A DNA stretch of 64,000 nucleotides from Streptomyces hundungensis. GTDB taxonomy: Bacteria; Actinomycetota; Actinomycetes; Streptomycetales; Streptomycetaceae. A program made the translations under genes and the position numbers. The notes under the pieces are model-generated. The model saw only the letters and a list, made by a program, of their open reading frames with translations. It was not told the DNA's origin and did not search any database. Shown here in pieces: positions 2,667 to 14,797 of this stretch. The first letter of the stretch is position 1, and each line of letters starts with the position of its first letter. The stretch spans positions 4,030,001-4,094,000 of the forward strand of contig NZ_CP032698.1 of assembly GCF_003627815.1 (NCBI RefSeq), in the 5' to 3' direction.

Positions 2667-3119
2667 TCAGGACGCGATACCGGACCCGGAGGCGGTCGGC
2701 TCCCGGAGCAATCGACGACCGTCATGCGTTCGCACGGGCGGCGCCTCCAAGTCCAACGCGTCGAGGACTCGCACCGCGTAGGCCTCGGTCATGTGGCTCT
2801 CGATCTCACTCCGGGTGAACCAGCGGACCTCAACCGACTCGCTGGACGTCCTCTCCTCACCCCCTACAGGGCGACACAGGAACACGAGCGCAACGACACC
2901 ACGCGCCATGTTCTTGTAGACGCCAGTCAGCCGCACAGCTTCAACCTGGAGACCTGTCTCTTCCAGGACTTCGCGGCACGCGCCGGCCTCGGGCTGCTCG
3001 TCGAGTTCCAGGACACCGCCCGGCGCCTCCCAGGCGCCGTTGTCGGCACGCCGAATGACCAGCACGCGGCCGTCTTCGCGAACGACCACGCCCGCGACCG
3101 AAACCGAGTGAAGCGACAT
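2667..3119 (-). CDS. Nudix hydrolase, Pif-like (transfer immunity candidate)
   Basis: This 150-residue protein has a complete Nudix box: GGVLELDEQPEAGACREVLE followed by ETGL, fitting Gx5Ex7REUxEExGU. Nudix enzymes hydrolyse nucleoside diphosphates linked to another group. In the AICE pSAM2 the Nudix-motif protein Pif gives conjugal immunity against redundant transfer, and the position beside a KorSA-like repressor suggests the same role here. The ATG at 3117-3119 follows AGGAAGG. An upstream ATG at 3149 overlaps the operator and has no comparable ribosome site. The gene is divergent from the GntR gene and is the only minus-strand gene of the element. Confidence 0.8.
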   Translation of the reverse strand: MSLHSVSVAGVVVREDGRVLVIRRADNGAWEAPGGVLELDEQPEAGACREVLEETGLQVEAVRLTGVYKNMARGVVALVFLCRPVGGEERTSSESVEVRWFTRSEIESHMTEAYAVRVLDALDLEAPPVRTHDGRRLLREPTASGSGIAS

Positions 3120-3143
3120 TGACGCACCTTCCTGGGTAGCGTT

Positions 3144-3159
3144 ACTCATGTATAGGAGC
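3144..3159. promoter_or_regulatory. KorSA-type operator in the Nudix/GntR divergent gap
   Basis: ACTCATGTATAGGAGC is a close relative of the palindromes at 4011 and 4047 (core ACTCMTGTACAGGAGT). It lies in the short gap between the divergent Nudix and GntR genes, so the repressor could control both. Confidence 0.6.
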
Positions 3160-3178
3160 ATAGGAGGAACTGAAGGAC

Positions 3179-3958
3179 ATGGGCACTACAGCCTCTAGGG
3201 ACTCGGGTCAGCCACGGTACCTACAGATCGCGGACGACCTTGCCCAGCAGATCAGGGCGGGTGTCCTCAAGCCGGGGGAGAAGGTACCCAGCGAGTCGGA
3301 ACTCATGACCCGGTATTCGGTCTCCCAGGGCACGGCGCGCAAGGCAGTCGCCGAGCTGCGCCCCACAGGACTGATCGACACCCTTCACGGCAAGGGGTCG
3401 TTCGTTAAGAGCCAGCCCCCAGTGCGACGCAAGTCGTCCGACCGGTTCCGGCGCTCTCACCGCCGAGCAGGCAAGGCGGCTTACATCGCCGAGACAGAGC
3501 AGGCAGGTAAGAAGCCGGGCGTCACCGTCTTGTACATCGGTCCCGTCGAGGCCGCAGACGAGATCGCCGAGCGGCTGGACGTACCGGCTGGCACCAAGGT
3601 GCTCGCCAGGCGACGCCTGTACTTCAGCGACGGAACTCCCACGGAGGAAGCGACTTCCTACCTGCCCTGGGACATTGCAAAGGACATTCCCGAACTCTTC
3701 GAGGAGAACCCGGGCGGTGGCGGCATCTATGCACGGCTCGAAGAGAACGGCCACGTCCTGAAGGAGTTCGTCGAAACGGTACGGGCTCGACTCGCCACGA
3801 AGCAGGAGACCGGGGCGCTCAGCCTCAGCCCAGGGTCCCCCGTCATCCACCTGACTCGAAGTGCCGAGACAGAAGCAGGCCGGATCGTCGAGGTCTGCGA
3901 CACGATCATGGCCGCTGACCAGTTCGTTCTCGACTACCGCATCCCCGCCGGGGACTAA
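3179..3958 (+). CDS. GntR/HutC-family repressor, KorSA-like
   Basis: The protein has 259 residues. A GntR winged helix occupies about residues 12-80 (YLQIADDLAQQIRAGVLKPG, then SELMTRYSVSQGTARKAV and LHGKGSFV). A UTRA effector-binding domain fills about residues 100-255, ending in a short VLDYRIPAGD tail. In pSAM2 KorSA keeps the element integrated by repressing replication and transfer activation, and it controls its own gene. Four copies of a matching palindrome surround this gene. The ATG follows TAGGAGGA and GAAGGA sites. It is divergent from the Nudix gene. Confidence 0.85.
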   Translation: MGTTASRDSGQPRYLQIADDLAQQIRAGVLKPGEKVPSESELMTRYSVSQGTARKAVAELRPTGLIDTLHGKGSFVKSQPPVRRKSSDRFRRSHRRAGKAAYIAETEQAGKKPGVTVLYIGPVEAADEIAERLDVPAGTKVLARRRLYFSDGTPTEEATSYLPWDIAKDIPELFEENPGGGGIYARLEENGHVLKEFVETVRARLATKQETGALSLSPGSPVIHLTRSAETEAGRIVEVCDTIMAADQFVLDYRIPAGD

Positions 3959-4010
3959 CGGCCCGAACGTCTTCCCAACCCGTCGCGAAGATTCTTCACG
4001 CGGCGGGTTG

Positions 4011-4078
4011 ACTCATGTACAGGAGTTGGGCACTCTAATGAACGTAACTCCTGCACATGAGTGCAGGAGTACAGGAGT
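4011..4078. promoter_or_regulatory. Cluster of KorSA-type operators
   Basis: Two full palindromes are present: ACTCATGTACAGGAGT (4011-4026) and ACTCCTGCACATGAGT (4047-4062). An extra half-site GTACAGGAGT lies at 4069-4078. With the copy at 3144 they define the consensus ACTCMTGYAYAKGAGT. The first two centres are 36 bp apart and sit downstream of the GntR stop codon, so the cluster probably controls a promoter firing into the transfer/replication genes. Confidence 0.65.
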
Positions 4079-4445
4079 CCTCGGACTCCGTGCATTGTGC
4101 GCCCGGAGGAAAGCCCGCAGGGGTGAGTACGAAGTGAGCGTTCGCTGGCTTGAGAACTCAACAGCGTGCCGACCCAGCCGCATGAACAGGTGCGGTCGAT
4201 GGGTGCGGGTCACCATCCCGACCGACCATGTCGGGCCGGGTGGCCTGCCCTGATCCGCCTTACGGGGTGGTGACGGCATTGCGTGATCTGACATCCGCAG
4301 AACCTTCGCGGCGCCTGCCGCACTTGATCTCAACCATCGCCGGGTTACACGGCGGCCGGTTGCCTCCTCTGCCCGTCCGGGCGCCCTGCGGGGCGGTCGT
4401 ACGGGCGGGGTTGAGGGGAGCCGGATTGACCGACTTCAACGGCGC
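4079..4445. other. Gene-poor leader of the element's main operon
   Basis: No convincing gene is seen in this roughly 370-base stretch. A 71-codon reading from 4038 overlaps the operators, has no ribosome site and shows no recognisable sequence. The region probably carries the promoter and 5' leader of the DUF6284 operon. Confidence 0.45.
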
Positions 4446-4475
4446 GCGGCCCCGGTGCGGGAACACCGGGGCCGC
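4446..4475 (+). terminator. Hairpin upstream of the DUF6284 gene
   Basis: GCGGCCCCGGTG (4446-4457) pairs perfectly with 4464-4475 across a six-base loop. It ends 38 bases before the DUF6284 ATG, so it may act as an attenuator or as a terminator for upstream transcription. Confidence 0.6.
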
Positions 4476-4513
4476 TGTTCGAGCCGTTTCACCTGCTAGG
4501 GAGACCACGACTC

Positions 4514-4783
4514 ATGAAGAACATCGCTGCACTTCAGAAGGCCGTTACCGGCACCCTGCCGGACACCGAGCCGACGCCGGTCGAACTCGACGCGCTCGAC
4601 ATCGAGATGCCGCTGATCCTGGCGGAAGTCGAGTTGCTGGACGCACAGATCATCACGCTCGACCGCACCCCGAACGAGCTCGACGCCCGCCGCATCCGCC
4701 GGGCCCACCGCAAGGTCCTCAAGGCGCGCCGGGCGCTCACCACCCAGGCCACCGTCGGGGGCACGTCGGGGGTGGGCGCGTGA
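4514..4783 (+). CDS. DUF6284-like small protein
   Basis: The product has 89 residues, is acidic at the start and helical with basic residues later (RRIRRAHRKVLKARR). It resembles the DUF6284 proteins that recur at the head of Streptomyces AICE transfer operons, but the biochemical role is unknown. The ATG follows AGGGAGA. The stop overlaps the next start as GTGA (4780-4783), so the two are translationally coupled. It opens a tightly packed operon that runs through the methyltransferase. Confidence 0.7.
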   Translation: MKNIAALQKAVTGTLPDTEPTPVELDALDIEMPLILAEVELLDAQIITLDRTPNELDARRIRRAHRKVLKARRALTTQATVGGTSGVGA

Positions 4784-5223
4784 ATGGCAACGACTCGCTC
4801 AACACCGCGCACGCTGAGGTGAAGGCGGAGATTGCCCGGACCGACTCCAAGGTCAGTCTGCTGCTGGCGTTCGTCGGCGCGCTGGTGGCCGGTGCGGGGT
4901 CCGTCGCCAAGGACATGCAGCCGAGCGTGAGCGTCTGTGTCGTGGGCGGGCTCGGCATGGCCGTGCTGGTGGTGGCGGCCGGGCTGCTGTTGCGGTCGGC
5001 CCGCCCTAACCTGCGTGGTCGTCACGGGTTCCCGCTGTGGGCGACCCTGACCGCTGAGGAGATCACCACGGCCGTTGCGACGGACCGGGCGGCCGACATC
5101 GCGGGCCTGTCCCGGATCGCGGTCGCCAAGTTCACCGCCCTGCGCCGCGCGGTCGACCTCACGATGACCGGCGGCGTCCTGCTGGCCGTCGCGCTCCTGC
5201 TTCATGTCGGGGGTGCGGCGTGA
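4780..5223 (+). CDS. PycTM-like (Pycsar effector family) membrane protein
   Basis: The protein has 147 residues with GTG at 4780. Two transmembrane helices (about residues 24-45 and 52-72) are followed by a cytoplasmic stretch (RPNLRGRHGFP... to LSRIAVAKFTALRRAVD) and a third hydrophobic segment at the C terminus. This layout, with the D-K pair before the first helix, fits the DUF5706/PycTM family, whose members are membrane effectors of cyclic-pyrimidine (Pycsar) anti-phage systems. No pyrimidine cyclase gene is in the element, so the role may be transfer-related or exclusion. Both ends overlap neighbours by GTGA. Confidence 0.7.
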   Translation: MNGNDSLNTAHAEVKAEIARTDSKVSLLLAFVGALVAGAGSVAKDMQPSVSVCVVGGLGMAVLVVAAGLLLRSARPNLRGRHGFPLWATLTAEEITTAVATDRAADIAGLSRIAVAKFTALRRAVDLTMTGGVLLAVALLLHVGGAA

Positions 5224-6086
5224 ATCGCACTCCCAAGACGCTGCTTGTGATCGCTCTGGTCGCCGTGGTCGGTATGGCGTTCCGGGTGTCGTGGAACGCG
5301 CTCAGGGATGTGGCCCGTGCGATCGGTGCGGACCACACCGCCGCGACGCTGTACCCGTTCGTGGTCGATGGGCTGATGGCGCTGGCGCTGGTCGCCACGC
5401 TCGTGCTGACCGCCGACGCCCGGCGGTTCGCGCTGCGGGTGCTGGGCACCTACACCGCCGCTTCTCTGGTCCTCAACTACGTGCATGGTCTGGTTCCGGC
5501 GCTGCACGGCGCGTCAGTCGACTGGGGGCGGTTGGCCGACTGGAACCCGGCGAACTGGGCGCTCGTGCTGCTGGCGACGTCGCTTCCGGTCGGCTCGATC
5601 TACTTCGGGTCCGATCTGGTCGCCAAGGTCCTCCACCACCAACCGAACCCGATCGCGAATACGGAGGAATCGCCTGAGATCGTGAGTAATCGGTCTACGG
5701 GTGACCTCGCAGAATCGACCCCTGAGCCCGTGATCGTGAACGCGACGCCGATCCCGGCCGCCGTTCAGGTCGGCTTCCTCAAGCCGACCATCCCGGACAA
5801 GCCGGTGCCGTCGACCGCGCTCGTGCCGATCGGGCGTTCCGTGCCTGCCGAATCGGCCCGCCCGCGCCGGGCGACCGGCCGGGTGCCGGACGTCGCGCGA
5901 TCGAGTCGTCCCAAGCGGACCCCGGACGAACTCCTCACCGAAGCACGGTCGGTCACGGCCGACTGGGCTATGGAGAAGCTGACTGCCGAGGGCATCCGCA
6001 AGGCCGTCCACACTTCCCCGGCGAATGCCCGCACCCTGCGTGACGCGCTGCGTGCCGAGCGGGCCGAGCACGGAGCGGCGGCGTGA
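5220..6086 (+). CDS. DUF2637 membrane protein
   Basis: GTG at 5220 overlaps the preceding stop. Four hydrophobic segments lie in the first about 140 residues (LLVIALVAVVGMAFRVSWNA; YPFVVDGLMALALVATLVLT; LGTYTAASLVLNYVHGLVPA; WALVLLATSLPVGSIYFGSD), the usual DUF2637 arrangement. A long cytoplasmic tail ends in a basic helical region (TPDELLTEARSVTADWAMEKL...), possibly a helix-turn-helix. DUF2637 proteins are common in AICEs and actinobacterial plasmids, often called transfer or SpdB-type proteins, without a proven function. The length is 288 residues. Confidence 0.75.
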   Translation: MNRTPKTLLVIALVAVVGMAFRVSWNALRDVARAIGADHTAATLYPFVVDGLMALALVATLVLTADARRFALRVLGTYTAASLVLNYVHGLVPALHGASVDWGRLADWNPANWALVLLATSLPVGSIYFGSDLVAKVLHHQPNPIANTEESPEIVSNRSTGDLAESTPEPVIVNATPIPAAVQVGFLKPTIPDKPVPSTALVPIGRSVPAESARPRRATGRVPDVARSSRPKRTPDELLTEARSVTADWAMEKLTAEGIRKAVHTSPANARTLRDALRAERAEHGAAA

Positions 6087-7126
6087 GCGGCCTGCGCGTC
6101 GGGTCGCTCTGCACCGGTTACGGCGGCCTGGACATGGCCGTGCACCAGGTGTTCGGCGGCTCTCTGGCATGGGTCGCGGACAGCGACCCGGGAGCGGCTC
6201 GCATCCTCGCCCACCGCTTCCCCGGCGTTCCCAACATCGGCGACATCACCGCCGTGCGCTGGGAGGACCTGGAGGCGGTCGACATCCTCACGGGCGGCTA
6301 CCCCTGCCAGCCCTTCAGTTCCGCCGGCCACCGGAAGGGAACCAAAGATGCCCGGCACATCTGGCCCCACATCGCCCGTGCCCTTGGCGTTCTACGACCC
6401 CGCCTCGCGGTCTTTGAAAACGTCGCAGGGCACCTTTCTCTCGGATTCGACACCGTCCTCGCTGACCTTGCCCGCCTCGGGTTCGATGCGGACTGGTGCT
6501 GTGTACGCGCATCCGACATCGGCGCCGCCCACCAGCGCAAACGGCTCTTCCTGCTCGCCTGGCCTGCCAACCCCGGCCGCGAGGGACTGGCGCGGGGGCG
6601 GGCAGAACGGTCAACTGCCCACCGTGGTCTCTCTGCTGCCGACTCCATCGACCTCAGAGGCGACCGGAGCGGGACACGCGGCGCAGGGCGGGATGAACCT
6701 ACGACACGTCGTCTCCCTTCTGCCGACCCCGCGTGCGTCGGCGAACGAGAACCGGCAGACCAAGCGCACCCCGTCGCAGGAAGCCGGGACACACGGCAGG
6801 TGCCTGGCCGCCGAAGTGGCCAGCCTGCCAAGTCCGGCGAGCCTGCCTGGGGCGAGTACGGGCCGGCGGTCGCGCGGTGGGAAAGCACCCTCGGACGCCC
6901 CGCTCCCTGGCCAACTGACGCTCTGGGACGACTGAACCCGCCGTTCGTCGAATGGCTCATGGGCCTGCCCGCAGGCCACGTCACCGACGTCCCCGGCCTG
7001 TCGCGCACCGCACAGCTCAAGGCGCTCGGCAACGGCGTGCTGCCCGCTCAGGCCGCGCTCGCCCTGAGGGCATTGCATCGCCGTGCCACCAGCACCGCCC
7101 CCGCGACCCAGCCCGCCGCTGCCTGA
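6083..7126 (+). CDS. DNA (cytosine-5-)-methyltransferase
   Basis: The product has 347 residues and the standard order of motifs: SAM-binding SLCTGYGGLD (8-17), catalytic GGYPCQPFS with Cys75, FENVAG (111-116), QRKRLF (151-156) and, near the C terminus, LKALGNGVLP. The segment between motif VIII and the C terminus (residues about 160-260), where target recognition should lie, is Arg/Pro-rich and weakly structured in this frame. The same DNA encodes a conserved-looking protein in the +1 frame. The enzyme probably protects the element from host restriction during transfer; no cognate nuclease is present. The start overlaps the DUF2637 stop by four bases (GTGA, 6083-6086). Confidence 0.85.
   Translation: MSGLRVGSLCTGYGGLDMAVHQVFGGSLAWVADSDPGAARILAHRFPGVPNIGDITAVRWEDLEAVDILTGGYPCQPFSSAGHRKGTKDARHIWPHIARALGVLRPRLAVFENVAGHLSLGFDTVLADLARLGFDADWCCVRASDIGAAHQRKRLFLLAWPANPGREGLARGRAERSTAHRGLSAADSIDLRGDRSGTRGAGRDEPTTRRLPSADPACVGEREPADQAHPVAGSRDTRQVPGRRSGQPAKSGEPAWGEYGPAVARWESTLGRPAPWPTDALGRLNPPFVEWLMGLPAGHVTDVPGLSRTAQLKALGNGVLPAQAALALRALHRRATSTAPATQPAAA
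6348..6935 (+). CDS. Overprinted +1-frame protein resembling methyltransferase recognition-domain proteins
   Basis: This 195-residue reading lies wholly inside the methyltransferase gene, shifted +1. It contains a YDPASRSLKTSQ segment, SLTLPASGSMRTGAVY, and three Leu-Pro-Thr-Pro repeats (LPTPAARDW, LLPTPSTSE, LLPTPRASA). These patterns recur in proteins linked to phage and plasmid cytosine methylases (S-W-x-T-S-Q, W-P-x-S-G-x-M-x-x-G, LPTP-x-A-x-D). It ends in QLTLWDD. Over about 100 codons from 6569 to 6880 I count roughly 80% G/C at third positions here and about two-thirds in the methyltransferase frame. It could be a separate protein or could be joined by frameshifting. Expression is unproven. 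Confidence 0.45.
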   Translation: MPGTSGPTSPVPLAFYDPASRSLKTSQGTFLSDSTPSSLTLPASGSMRTGAVYAHPTSAPPTSANGSSCSPGLPTPAARDWRGGGQNGQLPTVVSLLPTPSTSEATGAGHAAQGGMNLRHVVSLLPTPRASANENRQTKRTPSQEAGTHGRCLAAEVASLPSPASLPGASTGRRSRGGKAPSDAPLPGQLTLWDD

Positions 7127-7143
7127 ACGCGAACGGAGACGCT

Positions 7144-7695
7144 GTGAAGCTCACCGTCACCACCCACAAGGTGTCCGGCTACCGCCAGACCCAGCGCACC
7201 GCCCAGTACCTGGCCGACCAGGCCGGGCGTTTGGTGGCCCGGTCGGTGTCGGGCCGCATGCCCGACGTGCAGATCGTCCTGACCACTGCCCGGGGCTTGG
7301 CTGAGCTGGCCACGGCCGCCGAAGCCGAGTTGGCCGGCGGGGTCGACAAGCGCGCCCTGAGCCGCGAAATGCGGCATGCCGTGCGTGAAGCCCGTGACGT
7401 GGCCGGGCGGGCCGTCCCGCTCGTGGACGGTTCGGTGCTGGTGCTGGTCAACGTCGACCAGCACCGCACCCCGGACGACTTCGCCGTAACCCTCGTTCAC
7501 GAGCTGGTGCACGCCATGCAGTTCAGCCGCAAGGGGGTGAGCGGACGCATCATCCGCGACCGCCGCCACTGCTTCGGCGTCGAGCGCCAGACCCGCCGCC
7601 AGGCCCGCGAACACGAACGCCTGATGCGCGAGGAAGAGAACGAGGCCTACGGCCGCGAATTCCTCGCCCGGCAGCTCATCGCCGCCGCCGCCTGA
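7144..7695 (+). CDS. Zincin-like metalloprotease-fold protein (HELVH)
   Basis: The GTG at 7144 follows a GGAGA ribosome site and gives 183 residues. The zinc-binding motif HELVH is at residues 119-123 within VTLVHELVHAMQ, and an acidic/basic helical tail (RREHERLMREEENEAYGREF-like) follows. HExxH with a second His is the hallmark of zinc metallopeptidases. The third ligand is not obvious, although H139-E143-type residues in the following region (RRHCFGVE) are candidates. No signal peptide is seen, so it is probably cytoplasmic. It sits between the methyltransferase and the translocase. Its substrate is unknown; an anti-defence or transfer role is only a guess. Confidence 0.6.
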   Translation: MKLTVTTHKVSGYRQTQRTAQYLADQAGRLVARSVSGRMPDVQIVLTTARGLAELATAAEAELAGGVDKRALSREMRHAVREARDVAGRAVPLVDGSVLVLVNVDQHRTPDDFAVTLVHELVHAMQFSRKGVSGRIIRDRRHCFGVERQTRRQAREHERLMREEENEAYGREFLARQLIAAAA

Positions 7696-7753
7696 CCGGG
7701 GCAGCATCCCTCCCGTTGCCGCCCCGGTCCGGGGCAGTCAGGAGTCAACTCCC

Positions 7754-9871
7754 GTGAGTACCAACGTCGTTCGCCTCACCAAGGACGTCACCAGCGCCCC
7801 TGTGGAGCCGTCCGGTACGCCGAGCGTTGCTGTAGCAGCGCCGGGCACCGAAACGCCGCCTGTGCCCCTGTGGGTGCGCTCCGGGCGGGCCGTGCGCGGC
7901 ATCGTCACCCACGAACACACCCGCACCGCCGCACGCCTCACGGTCCGCCACAGCATGTACGTGTTCGGCGGGTCCCGGATCGTGGCCCGCCGCACCTGGG
8001 AGGGCCGCACCGCCACCCGCTACGAACGCATGCTCCGCGCCGCCGAAGCCGCCGGAAACTACGAGGTGGCGGCCGAGTGGGAGGAACGCGGACAGCGCTT
8101 CCGCGAGGCCCGACACCGCCGCCGCATGGACCTGCTCACCGCTCCCGTCGACGCCGCCAAGAGCGTGCTCGTGGGCACCAGCATGGGCATCGGTTCGCTG
8201 GTCGCGCTCGGGGTCGTGCTGGCCATCGCCAACAAGAACCCGGCCGACGTCGTGACTCCGCTGATGGCCGTGGTCGAGTTCGTTCAGCTCCTGGTCACGA
8301 TCGTCACCATCGTGTGGGGTCCGGCCATCACCATCGGCCCGTTCCTCGCACTGCTCGCCCTGTGGGCCGTCGGCCGCCACCAACAGGCCGCCCCGAACTG
8401 GGCACTCCCGGCGGCCGTGCGCAACGGGGAAGGCGACCCGATCACCCCGTCCATCGTCGTCAAGGCCCTGCGCGACCTCGGCGTGCCCGCACTCGGCCGG
8501 GCCATCAAGGAGATGGGCGACGCAGGGGCGTCGATGCTCGGCCCGATCCGCATCGCCGGATGCGGCGTCGAAGTCGACGTCACCCTCCCGTCCGGGGTGT
8601 CGACGAACGAGGTGCAGAACCGTCGGCGCAAGCTTGCCGAAAACCTGTCCCGGCACGAGCACGAAGTGTTCATCACCATCCCCCAAGCCGCCCGCACCGT
8701 CCGCCTGTGGGTCGCCGACAGTGGCGCGCTGGATGAGCCGATCGGCCCGTCCCCGCTCGTCACCGACGAGACGATGACCGCCGACTACGCCAAGGGCCGC
8801 GCCCCCTGGGGACAGGACCTGCGCGGGGATGCGGCGGCCATCAGCCTGTATCAGCGCCACCTGCTGATCACGGGCCTCTCCAACCAGGGCAAGACTGTCG
8901 CGCTGCGCTCGCTCGCCCTGTGGGTCGCGCTGGACCGGTCGGTGCAGTTCCTTATGGGCGACCTCAAGGGCGTCGGTGACTGGGCCATGTTCGAGGGACT
9001 GGCCAAGGTCCTGATCCAGGGCCCGACCGACGACCACGTCATCCAGGTCACGGAGATGGTCGAGAGTGCGGTGGATGAGATGAACCGCCGCCTTCAGGCC
9101 CCGCCCGGCACCGTGTTCCCCGCCCTGATCGTCCTGGTTGATGAGGCGCAGGTGGCGTTCATGTGCCCGGTCAAGGACGACGAGAAGCGCCCCTACGGCG
9201 GGTCCAAGGCGAACTCCCGCTATTTCATGGCGGTCCGCAAGATCCACAACCAGGGGCGTGCGGTCAACGTGCTGATGTGGCAGGGCACCCAGGATCCCAC
9301 CGACCAGAACCTTCCGAAGTTGGTCCGCGAGGGCGCCCACACCCGGGCATCGCTCGCGCTCGGCACCGAGTCTCAGGCGCGCATGGCCCTCGGGGACAAG
9401 GCGGTTGACGGTGGCGCCGCCCCGAACCTGCTCCGTCCGGGCCTGGACCGGGGAACGCTGGTCGTCGCGTCCGACGGCATCGCCATTCCCGCGGGGCAGG
9501 CCTCGATCACGGTGCGCACGCACTACATCGACGACGACGCGGCCGTGGCCATCACCGACCGGGCCAAGGCCCTGCGCGATGGCGTCACCACGGTGACCGT
9601 GATCGAGCGGGGTGAGGAGCGTGACCCGCTCGCCGACATCGCTTCCGTGGTCGGCACGGCCGACAGGGTGCGGACCAAGGACGTCCTCGCCCGGCTCGCC
9701 ACCCTGAACGCGGGCGCCTACGGCAAGTGGTCCTTCCTCGACCTCAAGCGCGTTCTCGACGGCACCGGAGCCGAGCCGTACAAGTCCGACGGGGTCATGG
9801 TCGTCGGCCGTGACCGGGTCGCCCGGGCGCTCGCCAACCGCGACGCGGATGGTTCCGCTTCCGCCGCATAG
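7754..9871 (+). CDS. FtsK/SpoIIIE-type conjugal DNA translocase (TraSA/TraB-like)
   Basis: The protein has 705 residues with GTG at 7754 after a CAGGAGTC site. Two hydrophobic segments (about residues 135-155 and 172-205) precede a P-loop ATPase: Walker A GLSNQGKT near residue 373 and Walker B LIVLVDEAQ near residue 457. Streptomyces plasmids and AICEs move double-stranded DNA between mycelia with one such hexameric pore protein, which recognises repeats in a cis locus (clt). A CAGGGAG-rich region follows directly and is a candidate for that site. The C-terminal region would be the DNA-recognition domain. The gene is essential for transfer in related elements. Confidence 0.88.
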   Translation: MSTNVVRLTKDVTSAPVEPSGTPSVAVAAPGTETPPVPLWVRSGRAVRGIVTHEHTRTAARLTVRHSMYVFGGSRIVARRTWEGRTATRYERMLRAAEAAGNYEVAAEWEERGQRFREARHRRRMDLLTAPVDAAKSVLVGTSMGIGSLVALGVVLAIANKNPADVVTPLMAVVEFVQLLVTIVTIVWGPAITIGPFLALLALWAVGRHQQAAPNWALPAAVRNGEGDPITPSIVVKALRDLGVPALGRAIKEMGDAGASMLGPIRIAGCGVEVDVTLPSGVSTNEVQNRRRKLAENLSRHEHEVFITIPQAARTVRLWVADSGALDEPIGPSPLVTDETMTADYAKGRAPWGQDLRGDAAAISLYQRHLLITGLSNQGKTVALRSLALWVALDRSVQFLMGDLKGVGDWAMFEGLAKVLIQGPTDDHVIQVTEMVESAVDEMNRRLQAPPGTVFPALIVLVDEAQVAFMCPVKDDEKRPYGGSKANSRYFMAVRKIHNQGRAVNVLMWQGTQDPTDQNLPKLVREGAHTRASLALGTESQARMALGDKAVDGGAAPNLLRPGLDRGTLVVASDGIAIPAGQASITVRTHYIDDDAAVAITDRAKALRDGVTTVTVIERGEERDPLADIASVVGTADRVRTKDVLARLATLNAGAYGKWSFLDLKRVLDGTGAEPYKSDGVMVVGRDRVARALANRDADGSASAA

Positions 9872-9873
9872 AT

Positions 9874-10052
9874 CAGGGAGCGAACCCCTGGCGGGTCAGG
9901 GATGCAGGGAGAACTCCCTGACCCCCTCCCTGACCCGCCTCCCTCTCTCTCACCTGCACAAATGATCTGCCAGGGAGTCAGGGAGGCCCGCAGGTCAGCA
10001 CCCCCAAAACCCCTCCACCACGCACCCGGCAGGGGGTCCCCCTGCCTCCCTG
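9874..10052. repeat. CAGGGAG/CTCCCTG repeats; candidate clt transfer locus
   Basis: Six exact copies of the 7-mer occur in 180 bases: CAGGGAG at 9874, 9905, 9971 and 9979, and CTCCCTG at 9914 and 9926. A further CTCCCTG lies at 10046 and a one-mismatch copy at 9897. The 9905 and 9914 copies form a perfect inverted repeat with a two-base gap. The repeats fill the gap after the translocase gene. Clt sites of Streptomyces plasmids contain short repeats bound by the translocase, so this is the best candidate here. Confidence 0.5.
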
Positions 10053-10075
10053 CCCATCCCCGGAAGGGATTCCGC

Positions 10076-10531
10076 ATGTTCCCCGAACACCCCCGGCACG
10101 CGCCTGTTGAGCGGGGCGTGGAAGTCCACCACCCCACCCCGATCCAGCCGGTTGCGGCGCCACTCGTACCGGTCCAGCCGGGCACTGTCCCGGCGGTGGC
10201 GAGCATCGTCTTGCCGGACGGGCGGGTCGTGACCGGCTACGCCATCGAGCCCGCCAAGCCCGACCGGGTCGCCGCCAAACCGGCCGTGTCCCGCACCGCC
10301 GTGAACGTCGCGCTCGGCGGGATCGGCTTCGCCGCCGTGTGCGGCGGGCTGCTCCTGCTCACCACGTTCATCGCCGCACTCGCCGCCCTGATCCAGCAGC
10401 TCATCATCCTGGCGGCCGTCATCTTCGGCGGCGTCATCGCCGTACAGGTCCTCGGGCCCCGGCATGGGGAGGGCGGCACGGTCGTCAACATCCGCAAAGC
10501 GATCTTCAAGCGCAACCACTTCCGCAGCTAG
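10076..10531 (+). CDS. Small Spd-like membrane protein
   Basis: The ATG at 10076 follows GGAAGGGA and gives 151 residues. A Pro/Val-rich N-terminal region (residues 1-80) is followed by two adjacent hydrophobic helices (AVNVALGGIGFAAVCGGLLL and IQQLIILAAVIFGGVIAVQV) and a short basic tail. Spread (Spd) proteins of Streptomyces plasmids, which help intramycelial DNA movement, are often small membrane proteins encoded after the translocase gene. No signature motif allows a firm assignment. A longer reading from 9902 covers the CAGGGAG repeats and was rejected. Confidence 0.6.
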   Translation: MFPEHPRHAPVERGVEVHHPTPIQPVAAPLVPVQPGTVPAVASIVLPDGRVVTGYAIEPAKPDRVAAKPAVSRTAVNVALGGIGFAAVCGGLLLLTTFIAALAALIQQLIILAAVIFGGVIAVQVLGPRHGEGGTVVNIRKAIFKRNHFRS

Positions 10532-10538
10532 CTACGCC

Positions 10539-10578
10539 AAGGGCGGCCCCCGTCTCGCCAAAGTCCGGGGCCGCCCTT
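10539..10578 (+). terminator. Terminator-like hairpin after the Spd-like gene
   Basis: AAGGGCGGCCCC (10539-10550) pairs perfectly with 10567-10578 across a 16-base loop. It ends 39 bases before the Prim-Pol start and may separate transfer from replication transcripts or attenuate between them. Confidence 0.6.
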
Positions 10579-10616
10579 GCCTGCCAGCACTCATCACAGA
10601 ACTGGAGACACCCAGC

Positions 10617-11534
10617 ATGACCCAACACGACCCCGACGTGAAGCGAGCCTTACTCGATGCGGCTCTCCGGGCTACCGAAAGCGGCTGGCACGTCTTCCCC
10701 TTGCGTCCCGGCACCAAGCGCCCGGCCCTGCACGGTGAAGCTTCCTGCCCCGGCACGGGCCCGTGCGCGGGTGGGCACCGCAAGTGGGAGCAGCGCGCGA
10801 CCACCGACGTCGGCCGTATCCGGGCGACGTGGGAGCGGGCGCCGTTCAACGTCGGTATCGCCACCGGCCCGTCCGGGCTGGTCGTCGTCGACCTGGACGT
10901 GCCCAAGCAGAACGACAACAGCAGTGCGGACACGCCTTGCGGCGCGACGGCCTTTAAGGCGCTCTGCGAGCGCACCGGCCACGCCGTCCCCGCCACCTGC
11001 CGGGTGCGGACTGCGAGCGGCGGACAGCACCTCTACTTCACCGCCCCGGTAGGTGTCCGGCTCACCAACACAGCCGGTTCGCTGGCCCCATTGGTCGACA
11101 CCCGGGCGTGGGGCGGCTACGTCGTCGGCCCGGACAGCATCACGCCGATCGGCCCGTACGAGGCGGTGGGCGACGCTCCGGTAGCTCCACTGCCCGCATG
11201 GCTGGTGCGGTTGCTCCAACCCGCGCCCGCGCGTCCGGCCGAGCCGTTGCGGCTGCCCGTGGTGAGCGGGAGCCGCGCGGCGCGGGCCGCCCTGGCTGCG
11301 GAGTGCGCCGTGGTTACCGCATCGCCGGACAAGCAGCGCAACATCACGCTCAACCGGTGCGCCTTCAAGGTGGGGCGGTTCGTCGCGTGGGGCGACATCC
11401 CCCGGCACGTGGTGGAGGAAGCCTTCCAAGCGGCTGGGGAGGCGCGGGGACTCACCGCTGCGGAGTGCCGCTCCACCGTCCAGAGCGCCCTCAACAGCTC
11501 GCTGCGCAAGGCCCGTTCCCGGGATGCGGCATGA
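10617..11534 (+). CDS. Bifunctional DNA primase/polymerase (Prim-Pol), replication initiator
   Basis: The protein has 305 residues. The N-terminal Prim-Pol domain begins with a helical segment (ALLDAALRATESGWHVFPLR) and contains VVVDLDVPK, whose two Asp residues are expected metal ligands, and later TASGGQHLYF, with the catalytic His. The remaining helical part (about residues 210-305) has no clear family. AICEs are grouped by replication module, and this one belongs to the primase/polymerase type. The next two genes follow with ATGA overlaps and probably complete the replication operon. The start follows a CTGGAGA ribosome site. Confidence 0.82.
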   Translation: MTQHDPDVKRALLDAALRATESGWHVFPLRPGTKRPALHGEASCPGTGPCAGGHRKWEQRATTDVGRIRATWERAPFNVGIATGPSGLVVVDLDVPKQNDNSSADTPCGATAFKALCERTGHAVPATCRVRTASGGQHLYFTAPVGVRLTNTAGSLAPLVDTRAWGGYVVGPDSITPIGPYEAVGDAPVAPLPAWLVRLLQPAPARPAEPLRLPVVSGSRAARAALAAECAVVTASPDKQRNITLNRCAFKVGRFVAWGDIPRHVVEEAFQAAGEARGLTAAECRSTVQSALNSSLRKARSRDAA

Positions 11535-11887
11535 GCCCACGCCTGCATCCCCCCTTGGAAGGCCAACCGGCCGCTACCGGCCCGCACGCCGCCGAACCGG
11601 CCCCTGCTCGGCCGGTCGTGGGCGCCCCGAAAGGCGTCGCCCGCAGGGCGTCCGCTTCATCGGTTCGCTTTAGCCGGCACAACTACGACGACGGGCGCCG
11701 CCCCGTGGCCTGGCTCCACATCTGCGCCCCGCGCGGCGCCGTGCCCACGGCCACCTCGAAGTGCCTGTGCGGCCGGGACCGCAGCGCCGTCGGCTACCGC
11801 CGGGTGCTCGCGCTCATCGACGACCACACCGCCCACCTTGACCGCTGCCCGCTCTGTGCTTCCCGGGAAGGCAGGAATGCCGCATGA
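11531..11887 (+). CDS. Small putative zinc-ribbon protein of the replication operon
   Basis: The ATG overlaps the Prim-Pol stop (ATGA, 11531-11534) and its own stop overlaps the next start by four bases. Of 118 residues, the first 50 are Pro/Ala-rich and probably flexible. The rest contain two cysteine pairs, CLCGRD and CPLC, with His residues (HTAHLDRC) between, consistent with a zinc-binding fold. No family was recognised. The tight coupling between primase and DUF3631 genes suggests a DNA-binding replication or regulatory accessory. Confidence 0.6.
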   Translation: MSPRLHPPLEGQPAATGPHAAEPAPARPVVGAPKGVARRASASSVRFSRHNYDDGRRPVAWLHICAPRGAVPTATSKCLCGRDRSAVGYRRVLALIDDHTAHLDRCPLCASREGRNAA

Positions 11888-13047
11888 CCACCACTCCGCC
11901 CGCGCCGTCCATCGACGGCGCGGCCCTGCTCGATGAGGTCGAAGCGTTCCACCGCCGCTTCAACATCTTCCCCAGTGAAGCCGCCTACGTCGCCGTCGCA
12001 TTGTGGGACGCGCACGCGCACCTGCTCGACTGCTTCGACTCCACCCCGCGTCTGGCGTTCCTGTCCCCGGAGCCGGGATCAGGCAAGTCGCGTGCGCTGG
12101 AAATCGTGGAAACCCTCGTACCGCGCCCCATGGTCGCGGTGAACGCGTCCGCCGCCGCGCTCTTCCGGGCAGTGTCCGGTGCCGAGGGTCGGCCCACGAT
12201 CCTGTTCGACGAGATCGACACGGTCTTTGGCCCCAAGGCCGGGGACAACGAGGAACTGCGCGGGTTCCTCAACGCCGGACACCGCCGGACCGGGGTCACC
12301 TACCGGTGCGTGGGCGACAGCCAGACCGTCACCCCGTTCCCGTCCTACGCCGCCGTCGCGGTCGCAGGACTGGGCTCGTTGCCGGACACGATCCTGACCC
12401 GCGCCGTCATCATCCGCATGCGACGCCGGGCCCGCAACGAGAAGGTGGAACCCTTCCGTGCCCGCCTGCACGAGCAGGAGGGCCATGCCCTGCGGGACCG
12501 CCTTGCCGAGTGGGCTGAGCAGGCACGCGGCTGGGTCATGGGCGCGTGGCCCGAGATGCCCGACGGGGTCAGCGACCGGCCCGCCGACGTGTGGGAAGGA
12601 CTGCTGTCCATCGCGGACGCGGCCGGGGGCGACTGGCCCAAGCGGGCCCGCCAAGCCTGCCTGACGCTCGTGGAAGCCTCCCGCGCCAACGACAAAGGCA
12701 GTCTCGGCATCCGGCTGCTGACCGACCTGCGCGACCACGTCCTGATCGGCATCGACCGCCTGCCCACCGTCGCCATCCTCGACCGGCTCAACGCCCTGGA
12801 CGATGCCCCGTGGGCCGACCTCAACGGACGGCCGCTCGACAACCGGCGCCTGTCCAAGATGCTCAGCGACTACGTGACCGCCGACGGCGGCCCCATCGCC
12901 TCCCGCAACATCCGTACGAGCGGCGGAATCCTCAAGGGATTCTTCGCTGAAGACCTCACCGACGCGTGGGCCCGCTACTGCCCCTCTCCCGCGTCCGCTA
13001 CAAGCGCTACGCCGCTACATCCCAGCTCAGAGCCCCTGACTCTGTAG
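11884..13047 (+). CDS. DUF3631 ATPase, likely replicative helicase
   Basis: The protein has 387 residues. Walker A is PEPGSGKS (about residues 61-68) and Walker B is TILFDEID (about residues 97-104). The C-terminal region (SKMLSDYVTADGGPIASRNI...) matches DUF3631, a domain found at the end of plasmid and phage helicase/primase proteins. With the Prim-Pol gene it forms a two-part replication module that resembles fused primase-helicases split into separate cistrons. The last codons run into a cluster of CCGCTAC repeats, so the candidate origin overlaps the gene's 3' end. Confidence 0.78.
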   Translation: MTTTPPAPSIDGAALLDEVEAFHRRFNIFPSEAAYVAVALWDAHAHLLDCFDSTPRLAFLSPEPGSGKSRALEIVETLVPRPMVAVNASAAALFRAVSGAEGRPTILFDEIDTVFGPKAGDNEELRGFLNAGHRRTGVTYRCVGDSQTVTPFPSYAAVAVAGLGSLPDTILTRAVIIRMRRRARNEKVEPFRARLHEQEGHALRDRLAEWAEQARGWVMGAWPEMPDGVSDRPADVWEGLLSIADAAGGDWPKRARQACLTLVEASRANDKGSLGIRLLTDLRDHVLIGIDRLPTVAILDRLNALDDAPWADLNGRPLDNRRLSKMLSDYVTADGGPIASRNIRTSGGILKGFFAEDLTDAWARYCPSPASATSATPLHPSSEPLTL

Positions 13048-13173
13048 CGGCAATCCGAAATGTAGCGGCTACGGCCCCCACCCCCCGAAACGGCCGTAGC
13101 CGCTACATCCCACCCCTCCGCTACAAAAATCATGCCGCTGACCTGCGATGTAGCGGCGTAGCGGATGTAGCGG
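12972..13173. repeat. CCGCTAC/GTAGCGG iteron-like array; candidate replication origin
   Basis: Ten exact copies of a 7-mer lie in about 200 bases. CCGCTAC is at 12972, 12995, 13012, 13100 and 13118. GTAGCGG is at 13044, 13062, 13150, 13158 and 13167. Several are followed by ATCCCA or preceded by AT, so the unit is probably longer (ATGTAGCGG/CCGCTACAT). The array begins inside the DUF3631 gene and contains a short A-rich stretch (ACAAAAATCAT) in otherwise G+C-rich DNA. Iterons beside a replication gene are the usual form of a rep-controlled origin. Confidence 0.6.
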
Positions 13174-13227
13174 ACCCCAGAGAAGGGGGCCGCCCCCTTC
13201 CCCTGCCCCCACGAGGAGGCGCCCAGC

Positions 13228-13461
13228 ATGCGCCCGCCACCGGCCGTCGCCGACACCCTCCGCAACGGCATTCCGGACCGCTACCTCACGCCCGATGACA
13301 TCGCCGCGATCTTCGAGGTGCCCAAGGAAACCGTCTACCAGTGGCGCAAGAAGCGCGTCGGCCCGCCCGGATTCCGCATCGGCAAGCACGTCCGCTATGA
13401 CCCCGCCGAAGTGCTCGCCTACGTAGCCGAGCGCAAAGGCGCGGACCGCGCCGCAGCCTGA
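13228..13461 (+). CDS. xis: Excisionase-type MerR-like DNA-binding protein (Xis)
   Basis: The product has 77 residues. A winged helix-turn-helix reads YLTPDDIAAIFEVPKETVYQ, then WRKKRVGPPGFRIGKHVRY, which is the typical HTH_17/AlpA-like recombination directionality factor. Size and position immediately before the integrase gene match Xis of other AICEs. Xis bends DNA at the att arms and lets Int excise the element. A perfect hairpin lies between the two genes, so they may be regulated separately. Confidence 0.85.
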   Translation: MRPPPAVADTLRNGIPDRYLTPDDIAAIFEVPKETVYQWRKKRVGPPGFRIGKHVRYDPAEVLAYVAERKGADRAAA

Positions 13462-13483
13462 CCCAGCACACCGCCAGGACCCC

Positions 13484-13511
13484 AGGGAGGGCCACATCGT
13501 GGCCCTCCCTT
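13484..13511 (+). terminator. Hairpin between xis and int
   Basis: AGGGAGGGCCAC (13484-13495) pairs perfectly with 13499-13510 across the three-base loop ATC. It occupies the space before the integrase gene and includes a GTG that could be misread as an upstream start. It could reduce integrase expression relative to xis. Confidence 0.65.
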
Positions 13512-13537
13512 CGCCATCCCCGAAGGGAACCGCGTTC

Positions 13538-14797
13538 ATGGCAGGCCACATCCAAGACCGCTGGTACAAAACCGAAACCGACGCCAACGGCAAGACCACC
13601 CGAGTCAAGTCCGACCGCTACGGCACCGGCATGCGCTACCGGGCTCGCTACATCGCCCCAGACGGCACCGAGAAGTCGAAGTCCTTCCCCGACGGTAAGA
13701 AGCGCCTCGCTGAGGAGTGGCTGGCCCGGATCGAGGCCGACATGTCGCGCGGCCAGTACATCGATCCCAAAGCCACCCGCATGACCTTTCAGGAGTTCGG
13801 GGAAAAGTGGCTCGCGAGCCAGAGCGGCGACCCGAACACGAAGGCTTCGATGACTTCGCAGCTTCGGCTGCACGCGTTCCCGCGTATCGGGGCCCGATCG
13901 CTGGGAGCGTTCCAGCCCAGCCACATCCGTGAGTTCGTGACGCAGCTCGAAGGGTCCGGCATGTCCGGCTCGTACGCCCGCGTCATCTTCTCCAACGTGC
14001 GCGCCATCCTGAGCGCGGCCGTCGAAGACGGATACATGCCCCGGAATCCCTGCACCTCCCGCACAGTGACGCTGCCGGAGATGGGAGCACGGCGTGTGGT
14101 CCCATGGCTGCCGGAACGGGTCTTCGCCGTGCGCAGCGCCATGGTCGACCGGTTCCGCCCCATGGTGGACGTGGGCGCTGGCTGCGGCATGCGGCAGGGG
14201 GAAATCCTCGGTCTCTCAGTCGAAGAGCTGGACTTCGGCAACGGCACGCTGCACGTCGTTCAGCAGCTCAAACTGAGCCTGAGCCAGCCCGTATTCGCTC
14301 CTCCGAAGGGGGGAAAGCTGCGTGACGTGCCACTTCCGGAGCCCGTCGCAGACGCGCTCCGGGAGCACATGAAGCTCTTTCCCCCGGTTGAGATCACGTT
14401 GCCCTGGATGCGTGCGGGAGGTCAGCCCGTCACCAAGCGCCTGATCTTCACCGGCCCTCTTGGCAGCCACGTCTGGCGTACGTCGCTGAATGAGGACCAC
14501 TGGAAGCCCGCGCTCGCCAAGGTCGGCGTCATCCCCAAGGCGAAGAGCCGGGAGCACACCGCCGCTCGCGAGCACGGCATGCACGCGCTCAGGCACTTCT
14601 ACGCGTCCGTCCTGTTGGACGCCGGAGAGAGCATCAAGGCCGTGAGCGAGTACCTGGGGCACTCCGATCCGGGGCTGACTCTGAAGGTCTACGCCCACCT
14701 CATGCCGAGCAGTCGGGACCGCGCTCGGAAGGCTCTCGGTAGGGCGCTCAGGCCACAAGATCCCCCGGCCTCACGGCCCACAGACGGCCCCGAATAA
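13538..14797 (+). CDS. int: Tyrosine site-specific integrase
   Basis: The protein has 419 residues. An N-terminal arm-binding part and a SAM-like core-binding domain (TFQEFGEKWLASQSG..., about residues 85-180) precede the catalytic domain. The catalytic residues are visible: Arg219 in CGMRQGEILGL, HALRH (His349, Arg352), LGHSD (His375) and Tyr385 in VYAHLM. It should recombine attP with the 3' end of gpmA. The ATG at 13538 follows GAAGGGA. The in-frame GTG at 13499 lies inside a hairpin and was not chosen. The gene ends 53 bases before attR, as usual for such elements. Confidence 0.93.
   Translation: MAGHIQDRWYKTETDANGKTTRVKSDRYGTGMRYRARYIAPDGTEKSKSFPDGKKRLAEEWLARIEADMSRGQYIDPKATRMTFQEFGEKWLASQSGDPNTKASMTSQLRLHAFPRIGARSLGAFQPSHIREFVTQLEGSGMSGSYARVIFSNVRAILSAAVEDGYMPRNPCTSRTVTLPEMGARRVVPWLPERVFAVRSAMVDRFRPMVDVGAGCGMRQGEILGLSVEELDFGNGTLHVVQQLKLSLSQPVFAPPKGGKLRDVPLPEPVADALREHMKLFPPVEITLPWMRAGGQPVTKRLIFTGPLGSHVWRTSLNEDHWKPALAKVGVIPKAKSREHTAAREHGMHALRHFYASVLLDAGESIKAVSEYLGHSDPGLTLKVYAHLMPSSRDRARKALGRALRPQDPPASRPTDGPE

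Follow-up and report, generated by a model that had tools for sequence, protein, structure and literature searches.

A nested +1 reading frame under selection inside a cytosine-5 methyltransferase gene of Streptomyces hundungensis

The methyltransferase gene at positions 6083-7126 (forward strand) of the window, that is, the whole 64,000-nucleotide stretch of Streptomyces hundungensis DNA analysed here, almost certainly codes in two frames, as judged by comparison with its relatives. One is the methyltransferase frame itself (hereafter alpha), and the other is a nested frame at +1 (hereafter beta, 6348-6935), which the pattern of substitutions marks as a real, selected gene. Both frames are under selection and the initiation signals are kept. 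We consider it likely that the locus specifies a two-subunit C5 methylase, in which the recognition part (beta) is overprinted on the catalytic gene and acts in trans. From the sequence comparisons we infer that beta is translated in the cell and forms a complex with alpha, that recognition would lie with beta, and that the enzyme would serve in anti-restriction.

Two frames in one methyltransferase gene

The alpha ORF (6083..7126, forward strand, as are all features below) encodes 347 amino acids from a GTG start, matches PF00145 with an E value of 6.6e-31 in a Pfam search, and carries motifs I-VIII together with IX and X in one frame. Its catalytic PCQ (6302..6310), aligned to M.HhaI, corresponds to P74, C75 and Q76, which are invariant in alignment A3, as are G316, N317, G318 and V319 of motif X (LKALGNGVLP, 7016..7045). 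The first-pass annotation had assigned motifs I-VIII and X to this frame, which holds, but by pattern motif IX (LNPPFVEWLMGLPAG) is found there too; this IX-like stretch (RLNPPFVEWLMGLPAG, 6929..6976) lies in the conserved C-terminal part, and we take its number from its pattern rather than from a residue-level alignment. Residues 170-250 (6590..6832) are weakly constrained and occupy the slot where C5 methylases hold their recognition domain. In the structure predicted from a 26-row alignment this linker is disordered (block means of pLDDT 25-37), with the catalytic parts on both sides predicted confidently, and no ordered target-recognition domain was found between motifs VIII and IX, either in the predicted structure or in the alpha-frame constraint, which is low there. 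The catalytic PCQ, the ENV, the QxRxR and the AdoMet fold are present, and on this model alpha is still a C5 methylase by its catalytic features, lacking only an ordered recognition domain. Furthermore, alpha is open through the middle in all 24 loci compared (the window and 23 others, which are related, so that the counts are not independent events), against a mean of 9.9 expected when synonymous beta codons are permuted, which argues that alpha is very probably translated through this part as a linker. In single phage loci, alpha was open by chance in 0 (L155), 1 (L156), 3 (L163), 65 (L158) and 46 (L160) of 1000 cases.

The 195-codon +1 frame that had been noted inside the methyltransferase is present at 6348..6935, starts with ATG and contains all the motifs quoted from it, namely RSLKTSQ, SLTLPASGSMRTGAVY, three LPTP and the C-terminal QLTLWDD. 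Its N-terminal part (6348..6563) overlaps alpha motifs VI-VIII, and both frames are constrained there except at alpha residues 136-150, a single 15-codon block near background. The LPTP array follows (6564..6839, with LPTP at about 6564, 6636 and 6720); it shows an inversion of codon-position constraint and is the proposed recognition region. The beta start (6348..6350) is made of the alpha Asp89 codon GAT and the following G, and Asp89 is GAT in 17 of 18 sequences, compared with 4 of 139 Asp codons in control regions; the sole exception (L017) has an ATG one codon upstream instead. Seven nucleotides upstream of the ATG there is an SD-like AAGGGA (6335..6340), formed by the alpha Gly86 codon GGA, which is likewise kept in 17 of 18 sequences, compared with 20 of 280 Gly codons in control regions. 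The position of the beta stop is common to all 18 sequences, and no stop codon occurs in the first overlap of the 17 close relatives.

Selection was assessed on the window and 17 of 70 loci, which are close full-length Streptomyces loci (distant or truncated ones were excluded) and are related, so that counts among them do not represent independent events. The pairwise difference at alpha codon positions 1, 2 and 3 is 0.164, 0.123 and 0.317 before the overlap, and 0.104, 0.110 and 0.373 after it. Within the overlap, the corresponding values are 0.099, 0.055 and 0.177 in the first part, 0.399, 0.134 and 0.110 in the middle, and 0.247, 0.191 and 0.320 in the last part. Read in this way, both frames are constrained in the first part, and in the middle the constraint is almost wholly on beta. 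The fourfold divergence of alpha is 0.385 before the overlap and 0.410 after it; within the overlap it falls to 0.174 in the first part and 0.046 in the middle, and is 0.286 in the last part. For beta, the value in the middle is 0.497. None of 2000 bootstraps reversed either contrast, i.e. position 3 in the first part being lower than in the control, and position 3 in the middle being lower than position 1. Moreover, the substitutions in homologues respect the +1 frame, protein identity in the middle being 0.846 for beta vs 0.548 for alpha. The higher third-position G/C content claimed for the +1 frame is borne out in the middle (0.80 in beta vs 0.64 in alpha), alpha having 0.90 before the overlap and 0.87 after it. 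The constraint is uneven in 15-codon blocks, as alpha residues 136-150 (0.339) and 256-270 (0.413), both in the overlap, are near background. The same inversion is seen in a viral set of 56 sequences (from 62 found, distant and identical ones being excluded), where over alpha residues 181-300 of L081 position 1 differs by 0.23-0.34 and position 3 by 0.01-0.11. Synonymous resampling of the first overlap gave a mean beta identity of 0.543 (highest of 300, 0.571) vs 0.779 observed, a comparison that assumes saturated synonymous sites and is not leaned on as evidence.

The length of the beta ORF was also considered as evidence for coding and was rejected for the window, because, when the alpha CDS was permuted synonymously 2000 times, 302 of the permutations were at least as open, and the openness of the +1 frame is thus within chance.

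Searching proteins with beta yielded 753 homologues at E<=1e-3 out of 1750 candidates. Among the 120 matches listed, named proteins are mostly 'hypothetical protein', and a single one has a Pfam domain, the Kitasatospora protein P0096, whose alpha N-terminus continues into the beta reading. PHROG_1008 ('DNA methyltransferase', 329 aa) matches beta at 1.2e-19 (profile positions 64-150), and it also matches the alpha C-terminus and all 8 further proteins of the beta or single-chain type that were tested. It is the only profile match of beta, for which Pfam gave no match up to an E value of 0.1, and no catalytic domain match was found in beta. Predicted alone, beta has a pLDDT of 57 and a pTM of 0.24, with no confident fold, and its profile has no match at E<=1 among PDB sequences. 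In the window's genus, beta is matched at E<=1e-8 in 23 of 295 genomes (its own genome counted) at 28 places, some of which are two pieces of one locus, and none of these 28 matches contains a stop codon.

Layouts of the two frames in bacteria and phages

The following counts are layout evidence and not selection evidence, since the profiles of the beta N-terminal part were built iteratively from the loci counted here and could in part track alpha: among the 70 loci from a genome scan with alpha, the alpha N-terminus is present in 62 and absent from 8, and in the 62 the beta N-terminal part overlaps it at +1 in 60 and stands in the alpha frame in 2 (L056 and L071). A scan of viral sequences with beta gave 256 stretches, 252 of them relatives; the best 80 comprise 78 cases of alpha with beta at +1 and 2 without alpha. 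In 13 phage and plasmid loci, the beta N-terminal part is at +1 in 10 and has no match in 3. Two more distant methylases of the window's own genome (L167 and L168) have no match to it.

As assigned by regular expression, the Streptomyces-type layout has LPTP at +1 and motifs IX and X at 0. In the genus, all 12 minus-strand places (two of which are pieces of one locus) have LPTP at +1, with the C-terminus at 0. The commonest layout has LPTP and IX at +1 and X at 0. Among the 159 loci that have an alpha N-terminus, a set in which the window (WIN, L164) and another locus (L165, L166) are each counted twice and many motifs are unassigned, it was assigned to 78; the majority of viral loci and many of those in phages have it. 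In the 18 loci examined from Micromonospora and its relatives, the alpha frame closes after motif VIII, and LPTP, IX and X are all in the +1 frame. L053 and a second methylase of the window's genome (L165) hold the LPTP array in frame between motifs VIII and IX, with the beta N-terminal part remaining at +1; in L056 and L071 the array is also in frame, with motif VIII in another frame. As read from these sequences, the single-chain and fused forms place the LPTP array in the recognition-domain slot. The number of LPTP motifs per beta protein ranges from 2 to 7 (121 proteins), and a given unit recurs at different ordinal positions.

No upstream beta start is kept in the Micromonospora-type loci, where the commonest +1 start is a GTG or ATG just before the first LPTP (14 of the 18 loci, within L027-L072). 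The fourfold divergence of alpha in this type is 0.155 at residues 126-162 vs 0.333-0.356 at 41-110 and 0.206 at 1-40, so the drop over the beta N-terminal part appears less clear than in the window type. Some observations on these loci are recorded in their own right. The GTG or ATG at +1 sits near the alpha stop and could be a coupled start for a second gene. In two Micromonospora loci, L056 (3497-5371) and L071 (3662-5065), the alpha N-terminus passes straight into the beta reading, possibly as a fusion or a decayed copy. In L061 (2828-6290), about 2 kb between the alpha N-terminus and the rest suggests an insertion in the methylase gene.

Long dual frames also occur in phages. In Acinetobacter phage ABMM1 (CDS GC 0.50) a 298-codon +1 frame lies over a 304-residue alpha, and +1 frames with beta motifs cover 232/240 codons in a Vibrio phage, 203/283 in a Lacticaseibacillus phage and 270/314 in an Escherichia phage. 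Permutations giving a frame as open, out of 2000, numbered 2 for Acinetobacter, 6 for Lacticaseibacillus, 13 for Vibrio and 0 for Escherichia, and 13 for Pseudomonas 5399, 7 for Xanthomonas, 53 for Rhodobacter and 48 for Pseudomonas phPA-G. Ten of 13 annotated phage and plasmid records list one frame only (nine alpha, and one beta, in Pseudomonas phage phPA-G). The record of Rhodococcus phage ReT1v-1 has the beta frame and a C-terminal piece of alpha, and in Mycobacterium phage Camperdownii and Streptomyces phage Samy both parts of the split gene are annotated. The dual coding suspected in the first-pass annotation is supported by homology, by codon-position rates, by the kept start, SD-like site and stop, and by recurrence in unrelated phages, lower-GC ones included.

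A candidate recognition subunit and the alternatives

We propose that one DNA stretch would give rise to a two-subunit DNA (cytosine-5) methyltransferase. Alpha (6083-7126) would bind AdoMet and carry out catalysis, a floppy linker taking the place of the recognition domain of monomeric enzymes, and beta (6348-6935) would be translated from its own ATG and SD-like site within alpha, in the +1 frame. The LPTP modules of beta would then supply the recognition part in trans, its N-terminal part probably docking on alpha, and the enzyme probably marks the mobile element's own DNA against host restriction. This reading is supported by the codon-position inversion, the fourfold divergence and the rare codons kept at the start and SD-like site, by the disordered alpha linker, the in-frame or fused LPTP arrays and the joining of beta and the alpha C-terminus in PHROG_1008, and by the long dual frames in phages of Acinetobacter, Vibrio, Lacticaseibacillus and Escherichia. 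Counting against it are that beta alone is not predicted to fold and its profile is without a PDB match, that the constraint is uneven at residues 136-150 and 256-270, and that no upstream beta start is kept in the Micromonospora type. The alternative recognition domain suggested at first remains the best functional reading of beta, but as a separately initiated subunit instead of the product of a frameshift.

It seems rather unlikely that beta is translated and yet is not a recognition subunit, having some other role, e.g. in the regulation of alpha or in anti-restriction. The want of a catalytic domain match and of a predicted fold would suit such a role, but at other loci the LPTP array stands inside methylases or is fused to them, and alpha is without an ordered recognition domain in the model. 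Programmed +1 frameshifting downstream of motif VIII, which would link the alpha N-terminus with the LPTP part and leave beta unmade as a protein of its own, is likewise improbable. In the Micromonospora-type loci, where no upstream beta start is kept, such a shift would yield a complete single-chain enzyme like that of L165; in the window type, however, the product would stop at QLTLWDD without motifs IX-X, and the +1 frame is constrained upstream of the end of motif VIII, with the ATG and SD-like site kept by rare codons. A separate subunit is favoured over a frameshift on two grounds: much of the 220 nt preceding any useful shift site is under constraint in the +1 frame, and that frame keeps a start of its own.

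The reading of the +1 frame as an echo, in which an ORF arisen by chance seems conserved through alpha conservation and GC-rich codons, has next to no probability: the ORF length is indeed not unusual at this GC, but this reading is already contradicted by the higher conservation of the middle +1 protein, by the alpha fourfold sites there, nearly unchanged against about 0.4 outside, and by the viral codon positions. A decayed single-chain methylase, with its recognition domain shifted out of frame by indels, has an equally negligible chance of being right; single-chain relatives with an in-frame array do exist (L165, L053), but the arrangement is kept across Streptomyces and in the 12 minus-strand places, the catalytic residues are intact, alpha is open in all 24 loci and both frames are selected, so that this reading, too, is already contradicted.

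Within the two-subunit reading, it is a tentative possibility, and one we hold as doubtful, that beta is an array of exchangeable DNA-recognition cassettes, with one LPTP unit per target, overprinted on the alpha linker, and that recombination would gain, lose or rearrange these cassettes in three-base steps that leave both frames open.

Known systems, the mobile element and what the finding means

M.EcoHK31I has the site YGGCCR, and the gene of its large subunit also encodes the small one, in a different frame; the window locus is alike in having a putative second small polypeptide, and its nested, selected +1 ORF fits this construction. The commonest layout found here (LPTP and IX at +1, X in the alpha frame) is likened to that of M.EcoHK31I by layout and not by sequence. 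Multispecific phage C5 methylases have several recognition domains, each module with its own target, and the variable number and order of LPTP units are compatible with such modules, which is not proof. In PMC3404938, M.EcoHK31I and M.AquI are given as two-polypeptide C5 methylases; the large subunit of M.EcoHK31I holds motifs I-VIII and X with the predicted recognition domain, and the small one motif IX only. PMC3439449 also terms M.EcoHK31I naturally split. Unlike that enzyme, the window has its IX-like motif in alpha and not in the small subunit, and its beta carries the LPTP array. If the two systems are the same, the recognition domain in the large subunit of M.EcoHK31I would count against recognition by beta. 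M.EcoHK31I is the closest known case, from which the window locus differs in keeping motif IX in alpha, and the locus is probably part of a far larger hidden family. The name EcoHK31I was not seen among 30 of 557 plasmid records listed.

For M.AquI, the same paper (PMC3404938) gives a first polypeptide with motifs I-VIII and a second with the distal recognition region and IX-X. The Micromonospora-type loci are alike, having IX and X on the second polypeptide, whereas the window has a full-length alpha with IX and X and a nested beta without them. Beta also differs from PHROG_1008 in being without the profile's C-terminal part, which matches alpha instead. The ShiLan domain, as described in PMC11855218, is an HNH endonuclease hidden out of frame in a phage methylase, as a homing insertion in the third frame; it resembles the window in that a second protein is hidden out of frame in a methylase gene whose in-frame reading is poorly predicted (PMC11855218), but the second frame of the window belongs to the methylase system and overlaps catalytic motifs, and beta has no HNH match. 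No description of the beta family was found in the titles and abstract openings of the open-licence papers searched, and an earlier description may exist elsewhere.

The gene set at 2667-14797 comprises NUDIX, GntR-UTRA, DUF2637, the methylase, a weak peptidase-like match, FtsK, Prim-Pol, DUF3631 and an integrase, and by this content the element resembles the integrative conjugative elements of actinomycetes; a search of the window for tRNA genes found none. On the same element, positions 4927-5172 (forward strand), in an ORF ending at 5223, match PycTM (Pycsar effector transmembrane domain, PF18967, 5.4e-14). Elsewhere in the genome, the in-frame LPTP methylase of L165 (1372-2742) stands beside a downstream reading that is primase-polymerase-like by eye, and may belong to a second related element.

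Long, conserved dual coding on the same strand is rarely established outside viruses. In this case it is met repeatedly: in Streptomyces, in phages of proteobacteria and Firmicutes and, in the form of overlapping split genes, in Micromonospora and its relatives. It would explain both the low-complexity stretch between motifs VIII and X in these methylase genes and the large LPTP 'hypothetical protein' family without Pfam domains, as two readings of one DNA. If the cassette reading is true, few other conserved same-strand dual-coding gene pairs of bacteria and phages would be as widespread as this one, which would have stayed hidden because often a single frame is annotated. And if beta is the recognition subunit, the specificity of these methylases would evolve via an overprinted frame.
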